Source of the DNA: Corallococcus sp. NCRR
Lineage (GTDB): Bacteria; Myxococcota; Myxococcia; Myxococcales; Myxococcaceae
Assembly (NCBI RefSeq): GCF_026965535.1
Contig: NZ_CP114039.1
Span: 4,216,001 to 4,280,000 of the forward strand
Reading direction: 5' to 3'
DNA: 64,000 bases
The notes beneath the pieces were generated by a model. It had not been told where the DNA came from. It searched no databases and was given only the letters and a program-made list of their open reading frames with translations. Both the position numbers and the translations under genes were made by a program. The number at the start of each line of letters is the position of its first letter. Position 1 is the first letter of the stretch. Positions 12,360-28,398 of the stretch are shown one piece after another.

Positions 12360-12740
12360 CTACTTCGCGGCACGCTGACGATGCTTCTCGCGCGCCGCGA
12401 GCACCTTGGGCGTGTTCGTCGCGATCCACCGGCCGAGCGCGTCGAGGTGCTCCGCGAGCCCGCTGCCCAATGGCGTCAGTGAGTAATCCACGCGCGGAGG
12501 CACCTCCCCGTAGTCACGCCGCGCGACGAAGCCGTCCTCCTCCAGTGTGCGGAGCGTCAGGGCGAGCATGCGCTCGCTGACGCCGCCCACGCGGCGCCGC
12601 AGCTCGGCGTAGCGGTAGGTGCGCTCGGCGAGCGCGAGCATGATGAGCATGCCCCACTTGGACACGACATGGTCGAGCACGTCCCGCCCGGGGCAGTCGG
12701 GCGCGTAGGACTCTCTGAGAAGATCGCCGAGCTTCGCCAT
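12360..12740 (-). CDS. HxlR family (MarR-like) winged-helix regulator
   Basis: 126 aa with the HxlR layout: a C-P (here Y-A-P-D-C-P-G-R) near the N-terminus, the W-G-M-L-I-M-L-A-L recognition region, L-R-R-R-V-G-G-V-S-E-R-M-L-A-L-T-L-R-T-L, and the wing V-P-P-R-V-D-Y-S-L-T-P-L-G. A single N-terminal Cys is common in redox-sensing members. It is divergent from an NAD(P)-binding protein across 65 bp, the typical arrangement for an HxlR regulator and its target. Confidence 0.92.
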   Translation of the reverse strand: MAKLGDLLRESYAPDCPGRDVLDHVVSKWGMLIMLALAERTYRYAELRRRVGGVSERMLALTLRTLEEDGFVARRDYGEVPPRVDYSLTPLGSGLAEHLDALGRWIATNTPKVLAAREKHRQRAAK

Positions 12741-12805: not shown

Positions 12806-13477
12806 ATGGCGAAGCTCCTCATCATCGGTGGCAGCGGTCGGACGGGCCTGCACCTCCTCGAACAGGCCGCGCAGCGCGGACACACGGTCCGTGCGCTCGT
12901 GCGCAAGCCCGACGCCGTGAAGGCCCCACCCGGCGTCGAGATGGTGAAGGGCACGCCGGAGAAGCTCGAGGACCTGCGCGAAGCGATGAAGGGGACCGAG
13001 GCGGTCATCGTCGCCCACAACAACTCGCGCGCGTCCGACAACCCCTGGGCGAAGCAGATCAACTCGCCGAGTTTCATGACGGACACGGCGCGAAACATCC
13101 TCGCCGTGATGGACGAGCAGCACGTGAAGCGCGTCGTCTTCCTCTCTGCGATCGGCGTCGGTGACTCGTGGCCGACCGTCTCGTGGTTGTTCCGGGCGTT
13201 CATCAAGCTGAGCAACATCAAGATCGGCTATGCCGACCACGATGGCGTCGACGCGCTCGTGCGCAAGAGCGACACCGACTGGACGCTGGTGCGCGCCGTC
13301 GGCCTGAACGACAAACCCGCAGGCGCGCTCGGCCCGCTGCACACCACCGAGGTCGGGGGTTCGAAGCCCGGAACGCTGAACGTGACGCGCGCGGAAGTGG
13401 CGACCTTCTGCCTCGACTGCGTCGACAAGAACGAGTGGGTCCACCGCGCGCCCATCATCTGGAACGGCAAGAAGTGA
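12806..13477 (+). CDS. NAD(P)-binding atypical SDR / NmrA-like protein
   Basis: 223 aa starting M-A-K-L-L-I-I-G-G-S-G-R-T-G. This is the GGxGxxG-type dinucleotide fold of atypical SDR proteins, with L-V-R-K-P in the NADP position. The later sequence (V-V-F-L-S-A-I-G-V-G-D, D-W-T-L-V-R-A-V-G-L) matches NAD(P)H-binding/NmrA-like proteins that act as reductases or redox sensors. It is the first gene of a plus-strand group with the 50-aa peptide and FrnE-like protein, opposite an HxlR regulator. Confidence 0.9.
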   Translation: MAKLLIIGGSGRTGLHLLEQAAQRGHTVRALVRKPDAVKAPPGVEMVKGTPEKLEDLREAMKGTEAVIVAHNNSRASDNPWAKQINSPSFMTDTARNILAVMDEQHVKRVVFLSAIGVGDSWPTVSWLFRAFIKLSNIKIGYADHDGVDALVRKSDTDWTLVRAVGLNDKPAGALGPLHTTEVGGSKPGTLNVTRAEVATFCLDCVDKNEWVHRAPIIWNGKK

Positions 13478-13555
13478 GCGCGGCGTTCGTCCATGGCCGG
13501 CTGTTCGCCGTGCTGCTCGTGGGCCATGAGCGCGCGCAGCGTGAAGGAGACCGCG

Positions 13556-13708
13556 ATGGAAGCTGAGACCGAGACCCAGGAAGCCCCGAAGCCGGAGGCG
13601 TCCTCCGAGCTGAAGCCCGTCGGGCCCGTGGCCAGGCCGCGGTTCGTCGTACTCACCACCGACGACGCCGCCGTGGGCGTCTGCAACCTCGACGGAGAAT
13701 GCTCATGA
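13556..13708 (+). CDS. 50-aa cysteine-containing peptide coupled to FrnE/DsbA gene
   Basis: ATG 13556 follows AAGGAG at a good distance. The TGA overlaps the ATG of the FrnE-like gene (ATGA at 13705-13708), which points to translational coupling and so to a real gene. The product has a charged, Glu/Pro/Ala-rich N-terminal part and ends R-F-V-V-L-T-T-D-D-A-A-V-G-V-C-N-L-D-G-E-C-S. Its only two cysteines are five residues apart at the extreme C-terminus. That leader-plus-Cys-tail shape resembles a ribosomal peptide precursor or a substrate/partner of the neighbouring thiol-disulfide protein. No known family is recognised. Confidence 0.65.
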   Translation: MEAETETQEAPKPEASSELKPVGPVARPRFVVLTTDDAAVGVCNLDGECS

Positions 13709-14358
13709 CCAGGCCGCTCACCATCGACGTGTGGAGCGATGTGATGTGCCCGTTCTGCTACATGGGCGACGCACTCCTCGCGAAGGCGCTGGACACGTTC
13801 CCGCACAAGGAGCAGGTCGAGGTCCGCTACCGCAGCTACCAACTCATGCCGGGACTGCCGACGGACAGCGATATGAACGCGACCGAGATCCTCGTGAGGG
13901 CGAAGGGCATCCCGCGCGCGCAGGCCATCGCGATGAACAAGCAGGTCGAGGCGCGCGCCGCCGAGGTGGGGCTCGAGTACCACCTCGACCAGGCGCTCGT
14001 CGTGAACACGCGCTCGGCGCAGCGGCTCTCGCAGTTCGCGCTGGCCGAGGGCAAGCAGCACGCCTTCATGCAGCGGCTCTTCCGCGCCTACTTCACGGAG
14101 GGCAAGAACGTCGGCAAGTACGACGTGCTCGCCGACCTCGCCGCCGAGGTCGGACTCGACAGGATGCGCGCGCTCGAAGTGTTGGAGAGCGGCGGCTTCG
14201 ACTCCGAGGTCGCCGCCGACCAGAGCCAGGCGAACGCGATCGGCATCCAGGGCGTCCCGTTCTTCGTCCTCGACGGGAAGTACGCGGTCGCTGGCGCGCA
14301 GCCCGTCGAGGCGTTCCGCAAGGCGCTCGACACGGCGTGGGGCGCGGACCGCGGATAG
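13705..14358 (+). CDS. DsbA family oxidoreductase, FrnE-like
   Basis: 217 aa from ATG 13705 (GGAG 7 bases upstream; ATG 13699 is in frame too). Thioredoxin fold with the active-site C-P-F-C at about residues 15-18 (W-S-D-V-M-C-P-F-C-Y). The helical insertion is typical of FrnE/DsbA-like cytosolic proteins, and the cis-Pro loop is G-I-Q-G-V-P-F-F-V-L. There is no signal peptide. FrnE-type proteins act as disulfide isomerases or in oxidative-stress and polyketide contexts. It is coupled to the 50-aa Cys peptide and lies just upstream of an IS701 insertion that did not cut it. Confidence 0.92.
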   Translation: MTRPLTIDVWSDVMCPFCYMGDALLAKALDTFPHKEQVEVRYRSYQLMPGLPTDSDMNATEILVRAKGIPRAQAIAMNKQVEARAAEVGLEYHLDQALVVNTRSAQRLSQFALAEGKQHAFMQRLFRAYFTEGKNVGKYDVLADLAAEVGLDRMRALEVLESGGFDSEVAADQSQANAIGIQGVPFFVLDGKYAVAGAQPVEAFRKALDTAWGADRG

Positions 14359-14364
14359 CCGCTC

Positions 14365-15788
14365 TTAGTACTACTTGATCAGATGCGTGACGGTCCTCGA
14401 GGAGGAGCGCGAGCGCCGAGTCTGCGGAGGCACAGCGGACAATGGCCGAGGCGGCGCAGCAGCAGATGCTGAAGCCGCCGACGCACCTGGGGAAGGGTCC
14501 AGGGAATCCTCCTCCGGGGGAAAAAGCGCTCGACGGAGCGCGAGGAAGCCATGGGCCACCATGCAGAGGGTGGCGTGGTGGTGAAAGCCTCTCCAGGTGC
14601 GGCCCTCGAAATGGTCCAGGCCGACTTCGCCCTTCATCTCCTGGTAGTCGCGCTCGACGCGCCAGCGCAGCTTCGCCAGGGTGACGAGGCGTTTGAGGGG
14701 CGTGTCTTCCGGCAGAGACGAGAGGTAGTACTTCGTTGGCGCGGCCTCGCCCGGCGGCCACTCACACAGGAGCCACTCGGGAGCGCCGGGCGCCTTGCGC
14801 ACGACATGGCCTTCAGCGACCTGGATTCGCACTGCGGCGAAAGTGGAGGACTGCGTGCCGCGGCTGCCCTCGCGCCAGCTGATGCGGCGGTACTCCTCCT
14901 CGGGTAACTGGCGCGCCAACTCTTCAATCGTCCAGGGCTGCACGCCGCTGTCGTCGACGAAGCGAGTCCGGGGGCGTCCGTACGCGCCAGCCTTCTTCAC
15001 GGGCAGGTGCGGCGTCGCCCCCGGAGGCCACACCTTGTGCTGCCCCGGCACGGCGACGAGGTAGGGCAGCCCGCGTGCCGTGAGTCCTTCGCGAAACTCC
15101 CGGCAATTGCCATACCCCGCATCCGCCAGGACGACGTGCTTGCGCACGCCCCACTCCAACGCGTCATCCAACTGCGACAGCGCCAATTCCCATTTGCGCG
15201 AGGCGCCTACCGCCTCGGGGACTCCGGCCGCCTTGCGTCGGTCCTTCTCCGTCACCCACTCCTCGGGCAGGTACAGCTGCATGCCGATACACCCGCTGCC
15301 ACGAGCCCCAGCCAAATGCAGGCTGACGGCCACCTGGCAGTTGTCCGTGCGCCCCAGCGTCCCCGAGTACTGACGGGCGACTCCCACCGAGTGCTTCCCC
15401 TTCTTCGGGAAGCCCGTGTCGTCCACCACAAGGGCTTCCACCTCCGGCAGCCGCTCTTCCAGCTTCCGCGCCAGTCGCTCCCTCAGCGCCTCGTCGCTCC
15501 ACGTCCCTTGCGAGACGCACTGCTGCAGTCGCTGGCGCATTGCCTCGACATCCCTGGCGTCCTCTACCAGCCGGGCCGCCATCGGCTCGATGCTCTTGCG
15601 CTCCCCATCCAGCAGTAGGCCCGTGACATAGGCCTCCATGGCGCGCCGCCTCTCCAGTCGCCCCATGCCGGCGACCATCTCTTCGAGATAGGCGCTCAGC
15701 GACTCATCCAACTTCTTGAGCTGCGCGGGTGTCATCCCGGCCGTAGATCACACGGGCCCCCTGGATTCAAGTGACCGGGTAGTATTAG
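14365..15788 (-). mobile_element. IS701-family insertion sequence with TTAG target duplication
   Basis: The element (14369-15784) starts TACTACTTGATCA and ends with the complement of TACTACCCGGTCA, an imperfect inverted repeat. TTAG is present directly outside both ends (14365-14368 and 15785-15788), matching the 4-bp YTAR duplications known for IS701. One intact transposase fills the element; the left repeat contains its stop codon. It sits between the FrnE gene and a serine hydrolase without disrupting either. Confidence 0.85.
14371..15735 (-). CDS. IS701 family transposase
   Basis: 454 aa, intact. DDE-type transposase of the IS701/IS4-like group: V-V-D-D-T-G-F-P-K-K-G-K-H-S-V-G-V-A-R-Q-Y holds the first Asp, V-L-A-D-A-G-Y-G the second, and R-W-R-V-E-R-D-Y-Q-E-M-K the Glu in the Y-x6-E region. 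The C-terminus is Ser/Ala/Pro-rich. The complete reading frame, ends and target duplication suggest a recently active copy. Confidence 0.95.
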   Translation of the reverse strand: MTPAQLKKLDESLSAYLEEMVAGMGRLERRRAMEAYVTGLLLDGERKSIEPMAARLVEDARDVEAMRQRLQQCVSQGTWSDEALRERLARKLEERLPEVEALVVDDTGFPKKGKHSVGVARQYSGTLGRTDNCQVAVSLHLAGARGSGCIGMQLYLPEEWVTEKDRRKAAGVPEAVGASRKWELALSQLDDALEWGVRKHVVLADAGYGNCREFREGLTARGLPYLVAVPGQHKVWPPGATPHLPVKKAGAYGRPRTRFVDDSGVQPWTIEELARQLPEEEYRRISWREGSRGTQSSTFAAVRIQVAEGHVVRKAPGAPEWLLCEWPPGEAAPTKYYLSSLPEDTPLKRLVTLAKLRWRVERDYQEMKGEVGLDHFEGRTWRGFHHHATLCMVAHGFLALRRALFPPEEDSLDPSPGASAASASAAAPPRPLSAVPPQTRRSRSSSRTVTHLIK

Positions 15789-27777: not shown

Positions 27778-28241
27778 GGGGTTTCGATCGGGTGTCGACT
27801 CACCGGACTGGAGGTCCGGGAATCGGCCATGTGAAGGACCCCGAAGTGCGAAGCGCAATCGACTGTCATGACACGGGAAAGCTGCCGTGAAATGGTTGGG
27901 AACGTCGGGTGTCATCGAAAGAAGGTGGCAGCCCTGTCCATGCGGTCACGCGGAGTCCTTGGAGAACGCGAAGCCCAAAGATGTTCGCGCACGGTGCAAG
28001 GGCCGAAGGGCGGTCGGCACCCCGAGGGGTGGGTCTCCAGGCAAGCCTTGTGACCGTGGCTGTGACCGGCTCGTGACGTCAGCGGAACGGTGCTGACATC
28101 CTGTGATCTGGAGCGTGCCTGGAACTGTGGGCTTCGTCGAACTCGTGGGGCACGAGGCCCTTTGGAGGCCCTGCTCTTCGGGCGTCCGACCCAGGGGGAG
28201 TCGATTGGGGTGTGCTGTGTTCGTGGCCGCTGCTGCTTCTG

Positions 28242-28287
28242 CTTCTCGCTCTCCGACATCGAACACCCTTCCATCACATCGTGGGTG
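28242..28287. repeat. 46-bp identical repeat, copy 2 (IS3 5' end)
   Basis: Identical to 19394-19439. Here only the upstream region and first codons of the IS3 orfA (minus strand M-S-E-S-E-K) remain before unrelated sequence, so it is a short IS3 scar between the large lipoprotein and the toxin cassette. The surrounding 27778-28398 shows no convincing gene. Confidence 0.85.
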
Positions 28288-28398
28288 CCCACGAAAGCGG
28301 GGGACTCTCACAATGCCCCACCCGGTCTCCGCCTTGTCGGACTGAACAGGGAACCTCTGTGCTGAGCGCCCCTGCTGGGGCCTGCCGCGGAGGCGTCG

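Follow-up and report, generated by a model that had tools for sequence, protein, structure and literature searches.

A 50-residue peptide encoded directly 5' of a gene for a FrnE-type thiol oxidoreductase probably represents the C-terminal redox tail of an FrnE-class enzyme, carried on a gene of its own and serving as a dedicated redox partner; from sequence comparison, we assign this reading a probability of about 0.8. Both genes are located in the window, the whole 64,000-nucleotide stretch of DNA that was analysed. The reading is favoured because the last approximately 24 residues of the peptide showed similarity to FrnE tails and to other detached tails in profile comparisons, though not with a profile of cis tails alone, because such peptides were associated with one clade of tail-less FrnEs and because the overlap between the two genes was conserved. 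No description of a separately encoded FrnE tail was found in the literature searched, which left most subscription papers out of reach, including the structure paper on FrnE of Deinococcus radiodurans (DrFrnE).

Results

The peptide gene (positions 13556–13708, forward strand) encoded MEAETETQEAPKPEASSELKPVGPVARPRFVVLTTDDAAVGVCNLDGECS, a Glu/Pro/Ala-rich part followed by a candidate redox segment. This C-terminal segment, RPRFVVLTTDDAAVGVCNLDGECS (13634–13705, forward strand), was similar to the C-terminal tails of FrnE proteins and ended in the motif CNLDGECS (C-x5-C), which contained the only two Cys residues of the peptide, Cys43 (13682–13684) and Cys49 (13700–13702, same strand). An AAGGAG ribosome-binding site (13544–13549, forward strand) was present six bases 5' of the ATG. 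The stop codon of the peptide gene (13706–13708) overlapped the ATG of frnE at 13705 (ATGA); a second in-frame ATG at 13699 would make this a 10-base overlap, and the FrnE start may be either ATG. An earlier note on this DNA had pointed out a good ribosome-binding site, the two Cys and the overlap with a CPFC oxidoreductase gene, all of which were seen in the sequence. It had also described a Glu/Pro/Ala-rich leader; the composition was confirmed, but "leader" does not suit a part that was low in complexity and variable across relatives.

When 9,456 six-frame ORFs were searched with a profile of 17 upstream peptides, from which the window copy was excluded, the window ORF was recovered (E = 1.2e-6). 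The peptide ORF is therefore more than a chance ORF, and that reading was rejected. Codon-level support for the reading frame was weak and partly against it. In the nine Promicromonospora copies, the C-terminal part had a pN/pS of 0.71 and the N-terminal part one of 1.23, while the final ten codons, which hold the motif, reached 1.22; in all 16 copies the respective values were 0.77, 0.93 and 0.78, with few synonymous sites available to vary in these GC-rich genes.

The overlapping frnE gene (13705–14358, forward strand) encoded a FrnE-type DsbA thiol oxidoreductase of 217 residues with CPFC at 13747–13758. The protein matched Pfam DSBA (8.6e-43) and, by sequence, DrFrnE (7e-47). The best PDB matches of its AF2 model (mean pLDDT 95.4) were five DrFrnE entries followed by SCO1869 (TM 0.91–0.96); compared with DrFrnE, the model had a TM of 0.93–0.96 and 40–41% identity. 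It thus had the DsbA-type thioredoxin fold with a CP(W/F)C active site that defines the FrnE subfamily. Many, though not all, members of this subfamily have a Cys-pair tail in the same chain. The window FrnE ended in ...AWGADRG with no Cys in its C-terminus, so a tail of this kind was absent.

Upstream of the peptide gene, and probably on the same transcript, was a gene for an NmrA-like NAD(P)-binding protein (12806–13477, forward strand; PF13460, 8.6e-42), preceded by a divergent gene for an HxlR-family regulator (12360–12740, reverse strand; PF01638, 5.3e-25; NCBIfam RrpB, 5.3e-18, under its cut-off). The regulator contained Cys16 in its N-terminal region, the region where redox-sensing HxlR proteins (YodB, HypR) keep their sensor Cys. 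On the other side, a DDE_5 transposase gene (14371–15735, reverse strand; PF13546, 7.7e-83) adjoined the cassette.

A FrnE match comparable to that of the window was absent in the other 192 Myxococcota genomes searched (next best 2.8e-52 versus 4.6e-143), and none of the 15 listed genomes from the same genus had a FrnE match at E ≤ 1e-30. When 58 further same-family genomes were searched with the NmrA gene, none matched at E ≤ 1e-40. The peptide profile matched two of 195 Myxococcota genomes at E ≤ 0.005, namely the window genome and one other (G049); the latter match (E = 5.4e-5) was rejected as a tail, since it reads by eye as a non-ribosomal peptide synthetase linker. The sequence of the window peptide alone gave matches at E ≤ 1 in 29 of 59 same-family genomes, the best outside the window genome at E = 0.03 (judged by E-values alone), and a single match in plasmid records (E = 4). 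Since comparable FrnE, peptide and NmrA matches were absent in the relatives searched, the peptide–frnE cassette was probably acquired. By path on the tree, the window FrnE was nearest to Glycomyces. The conservation in other Myxococcales that the earlier note had anticipated was not found in the Myxococcota genomes searched; short genes 5' of frnE occurred in actinobacteria instead.

Upstream peptides in actinobacteria

Scanning bacterial and archaeal genomes with the window FrnE protein provided 65 related loci. A short ORF ending in C-x-x-[DEN]-G-x-C-x-stop was located directly 5' of frnE in 15 of these, all actinobacterial (Glycomyces, Promicromonospora, Diaminobutyricibacter, Propionicicella and a Microbacteriaceae MAG), and two further operons of this type (L116 and L132) were found by profile search. 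The genes overlapped as TGATG in 17/17 actinobacterial loci and as ATGA in the window. Among 16 upstream peptides, invariance was limited to Met1, the Cys pair and the Gly inside that pair, the N-terminal half being variable and of low-complexity Glu/Pro/Ala composition; both Cys and the intervening Gly were also invariant in 14/14 rows of a second alignment. The invariance of the Cys is partly by construction, because peptide rows were chosen by the C-x-x-[DEN]-G-x-C motif or by profile, and downstream tails by Cys-pair pattern.

At the genome level, matches to the peptide profile occurred in 18 of 396 genomes from the order that includes Promicromonospora (E ≤ 0.05) and in four of 394 genomes of the class (E ≤ 0.005). 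In these and the other genome searches with the peptide, part of the first-look candidates was scored (16 to 34 per large genome), so that some loci may have been missed. The four matches in the class were the known locus, two chance matches and one downstream tail. Among L116, L132, L123, L121, L127, L126, L131, L122, L118 and the place of L125, the motif was seen only in L116 and L132, the known locus aside; for L121, L126, L131 and L122 the stretch viewed may have lain partly off the match.

A relative of one TetR gene was located 3' of frnE in 16/17 actinobacterial loci (13 in the same direction, three convergent), and five of these genes were confirmed as TetR by Pfam. Two CTTGAC-N6-GTCAAG-like sites (up to two mismatches) were present in all 15 loci tested, at −37 to −39 and at −7, the second spanning the start codon of the peptide gene. 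Such twin sites were carried by L034 (2762–2812) and 14 other upstream-type loci, and a −10-like TAnnnT preceded the ATG in several. Together, these elements suggest a leaderless mRNA under the TetR gene 3' of frnE. Neither the TetR gene nor the twin sites were seen in the part of the window read, which had the ribosome-binding site and the HxlR–NmrA context. HxlR relatives with 36–40% identity to that of the window were present in five of the 17 loci (L034, L037, L039, L043 and L088), on the other strand and about 0.6–1.3 kb 5' of the peptide gene. Relatives of the NmrA-like protein were found in none of the 17 loci at E ≤ 1e-3; the earlier suggestion that this protein could supply electrons thus had no support and was rejected.

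Fused, downstream and unlinked tails

Four Maribacter loci and one Fulvivirga locus had the peptide motif at the C-terminal end of the FrnE protein (a Maribacter example is LTILNTGEGNACDLDGNCD). In one Maribacter and one Fulvivirga genome, the FrnE tail was the sole match of the upstream-peptide profile at E ≤ 1 (0.061 and 0.159, respectively). In the order of Maribacter, 3/148 genomes matched the peptide profile at E ≤ 0.5; the best of these, in G725 (0.0115), outscored the Maribacter tail yet had no such motif at the place inspected.

Many tail-less FrnEs of Micrococcales were followed by a separate short gene. C-x4-C was present in 19/19 of these products aligned, the rows being chosen by Cys-pair pattern. 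The gene overlapped frnE by four bases in 15/19, and an [LF]x[ML]LG strand, LTMLG in DrFrnE, lay ahead of the Cys pair in 10/19. One downstream tail frame (L070: 3620–3829) had no standard in-frame start, owing either to an error in sequencing or to a genuine frameshift. Fusion by −1 frameshifting is conceivable for downstream splits but does not suit the gene order of the window.

Profiles of the different tail types recovered one another among the 9,456 ORFs. The downstream-peptide profile matched the cis tail of L068 (8e-5), the upstream peptides of L116 (2.7e-4) and L132 (7.8e-4), the cis tail of L048 (0.008) and the window peptide (0.04), all before any unrelated ORF. The upstream-peptide profile matched three Maribacter tails (0.010–0.028), the Fulvivirga tail (0.091) and the fourth Maribacter tail (0.48), one unrelated ORF (0.082) outranking the last two of these five Bacteroidetes tails. 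With the cis-tail profile, downstream tails of L070 (6e-4) and L064 (0.0018) and upstream peptides of L116 (0.0065) and L033 (0.038) were recovered; the window copy appeared only at E = 2.8, behind three unrelated ORFs. A profile of cis and downstream tails that included no upstream peptide had tails or detached peptides as its first 40 ORFs, the window copy ranking 38th (E = 0.053). A Cys-rich frame of the window (28066–28365, 0.082) with no nameable gene was rejected as a candidate and dropped to 0.97 in a further profile comparison. The E-values are weak because the tail is short, and most of the case for the probable homology of peptide and tail comes from linked series of matches between short profiles.

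The downstream-tail profile matched 45 of 297 genomes in the order of Promicromonospora (E ≤ 0.01). Among 30 loci fetched, 19 contained tails adjoining FrnE, seven contained cis tails, one contained a peroxidase fusion and three had no FrnE within flanks of about 1.5 kb. In the fusion, found in one genome (L167: 2145–2804, the same place as L164), a glutathione-peroxidase domain (PF00255, 8.9e-34) carried the tail at its N-terminus, and the fused gene lay immediately 3' of a FrnE without a tail. The three orphan tail genes (L148: 1504–1638, L157: 1438–1647 and L163: 1522–1668) came from genomes in which the single FrnE found (E ≤ 1e-10) was tail-less, showed no adjacent tail gene and was located 810 kb from the orphan or on another contig. 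An MFS transporter gene was near all three, two being convergent within about 50 bases and the third some 0.6 kb off.

Distribution of tail types

Altogether, 77 FrnEs were considered (the 65 scanned loci, the window, L116, L132 and nine others), and 75 were scored after L087 (cut by a contig end) and L097 (a fragment with a cis tail) were dropped. This sample leans towards the FrnE of the window, and L116 and L132 entered it through the peptide search. A cis tail was present in 20 rows, a downstream gene in 20 (including L070, despite its start) and an upstream gene in 18; 17 had none. No row had two, as judged by a scan for Cys pairs up to eight residues from a stop and, for the five remaining rows, by reading; other Cys-pair frames without the motif, upstream in eight rows and downstream in some (L099 and L132 among them), were taken as chance, and the wider downstream scan was restricted to rows without a cis tail or upstream peptide. 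In 18/18 upstream rows the enzyme was tail-less, i.e., without a C-terminal Cys pair.

In a FrnE phylogeny (IQ-TREE, 213 columns, quick search, no bootstrap), FrnEs with upstream peptides formed 18/19 rows of one clade (SH-aLRT 99), the exception being that of Ruania (L047: 2968–3657), which had neither peptide nor tail. FrnEs with downstream tails formed 20/22 rows of another clade (SH-aLRT 97). The upstream clade grouped (93) with a further clade (84), in which 8/11 rows had cis tails. The distribution of tail states on the tree required 11 changes, versus a mean of 41.9 after shuffling.

Discussion

If the peptide is a detached FrnE tail, it would be made together with the tail-less enzyme via overlapping translation. 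Protein disulfides would be reduced by the CPFC pair of FrnE, and the peptide may dock on the enzyme via the hydrophobic strand FVVL, which corresponds in position to LTML/LTIL of FrnE tails. The first active-site Cys (Cys15) would then exchange with Cys49 of the peptide, the disulfide would be handed on to Cys43–Cys49, and thioredoxin reductase or a thiol would re-reduce the peptide. The Glu/Pro/Ala part would act as a flexible spacer. In an AF2 model of a tailed Maribacter FrnE, the tail appeared as a disordered end of a long helix (pLDDT 51–55), which speaks neither for nor against docking. Counting against a detached tail are the weak E-values of the window copy, the unrelated ORFs that outranked some tails, the G725 match without the motif, the weak codon statistics, the Ruania FrnE within the upstream clade, the FrnEs without any tail (17/75), the spacing, CX5C in the window versus CX4C in DrFrnE, and the dispensability of the DrFrnE tail Cys for insulin reduction with DTT.

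The earlier note had offered two functions, a dedicated redox partner and a peptide product with a disulfide or thioether. The former is supported by the resemblance of the terminal segment to FrnE redox tails in both profile and motif. The latter would make the peptide a RiPP-type precursor, in which CNLDGECS becomes the product and FrnE aids maturation or export, as a short gene with a conserved C-terminal motif beside a thiol oxidoreductase gene might indicate. However, other species have this motif built into the C-terminus of FrnE, the peptide's N-terminal part is too variable to provide a conserved leader, and no modification enzyme was present among the six window neighbours scanned (HxlR, NmrA, DSBA, transposase, SDR and beta-lactamase-like); we therefore reject this product as very improbable. 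Nor did family searches favour it: the window peptide matched no Pfam or NCBIfam family, and the sole NCBIfam match among 16 upstream peptides was a weak one to PEP-CTERM (0.018). Slightly more doubtful still is that the gene mainly serves as a translated leader that sets frnE expression by coupling or attenuation, its product being irrelevant. The constant overlap across loci would fit this, as would the weak codon constraint, with none visible over the motif in Promicromonospora, and the actinobacterial start codon inside a palindrome, but the conserved residues turn up again in fused tails and in tail genes 3' of, or unlinked to, frnE, none of which could act as its leader.

In a closer relative of the preferred reading, FrnE would use the peptide as a dedicated adaptor or substrate, for instance as a shuttle to another protein such as a peroxidase, instead of being regenerated by it. 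The glutathione-peroxidase fusion directly 3' of FrnE in one genome and the orphan tails are in its favour. The tail was within or beside FrnE in 26/30 fetched loci, and the DrFrnE tail is reported (PMC8945050) to serve regeneration of the active site, so that we regard an adaptor as unlikely. For the regenerating detached tail, the three genomes with an unlinked tail gene and a tail-less FrnE argue for an ability to act in trans. Given its occurrence fused to FrnE, as a 5' or 3' gene, as an unlinked gene and in a glutathione-peroxidase fusion, the FrnE tail might tentatively be seen as a portable redox module that may link FrnE with other thiol enzymes by carrying electrons between them, and not only regenerate FrnE.

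The tail-like segment was found as a separate small gene for 38/55 tail-less FrnEs scored. A function can thus be proposed for short genes unnamed in Pfam and NCBIfam (window copy scanned): a tail segment seen in the crystal structure of a related enzyme appears to function here as a detached part. Such a two-part redox enzyme would make the hand-over step, which is hard to study when tethered, accessible with a synthetic peptide in trans.

The window FrnE shares its fold and CXXC core with DrFrnE (DR_0659; PDB 5cnw, 5coh, 5co3, 5xwh and 5cp1). According to the review PMC8945050, the tail of one DrFrnE molecule sits on the active site of its neighbour in crystals, where a Cys244–Cys22 disulfide forms; loss of the tail Cys lowers DTNB reduction driven by NADPH and thioredoxin reductase, whereas these Cys are dispensable for insulin reduction with DTT; and a missing tail in some FrnEs was taken to suggest a different regeneration mechanism. 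The DrFrnE tail is covalent and CX4C, whereas the proposed tail of the window is CX5C and encoded on its own 5' of frnE, and the enzyme itself has no Cys at its C-terminus. In Streptomyces coelicolor, SCO1869 (PDB 3gl5) has the FrnE core in common with the window and carries its tail, EACGPDGCAV, in cis. Among tails, the CX5C tail of Maribacter and Fulvivirga FrnE (C-D-x-D-G-x-C) comes closest in motif to the window peptide, although it is in cis. A separate short tail gene, as proposed for the window, also accompanies the downstream-split FrnEs of Micrococcales (Frigoribacterium, Leucobacter, Naasia and others), but there the gene is 3' and CX4C, whereas the window peptide gene is 5' and CX5C.
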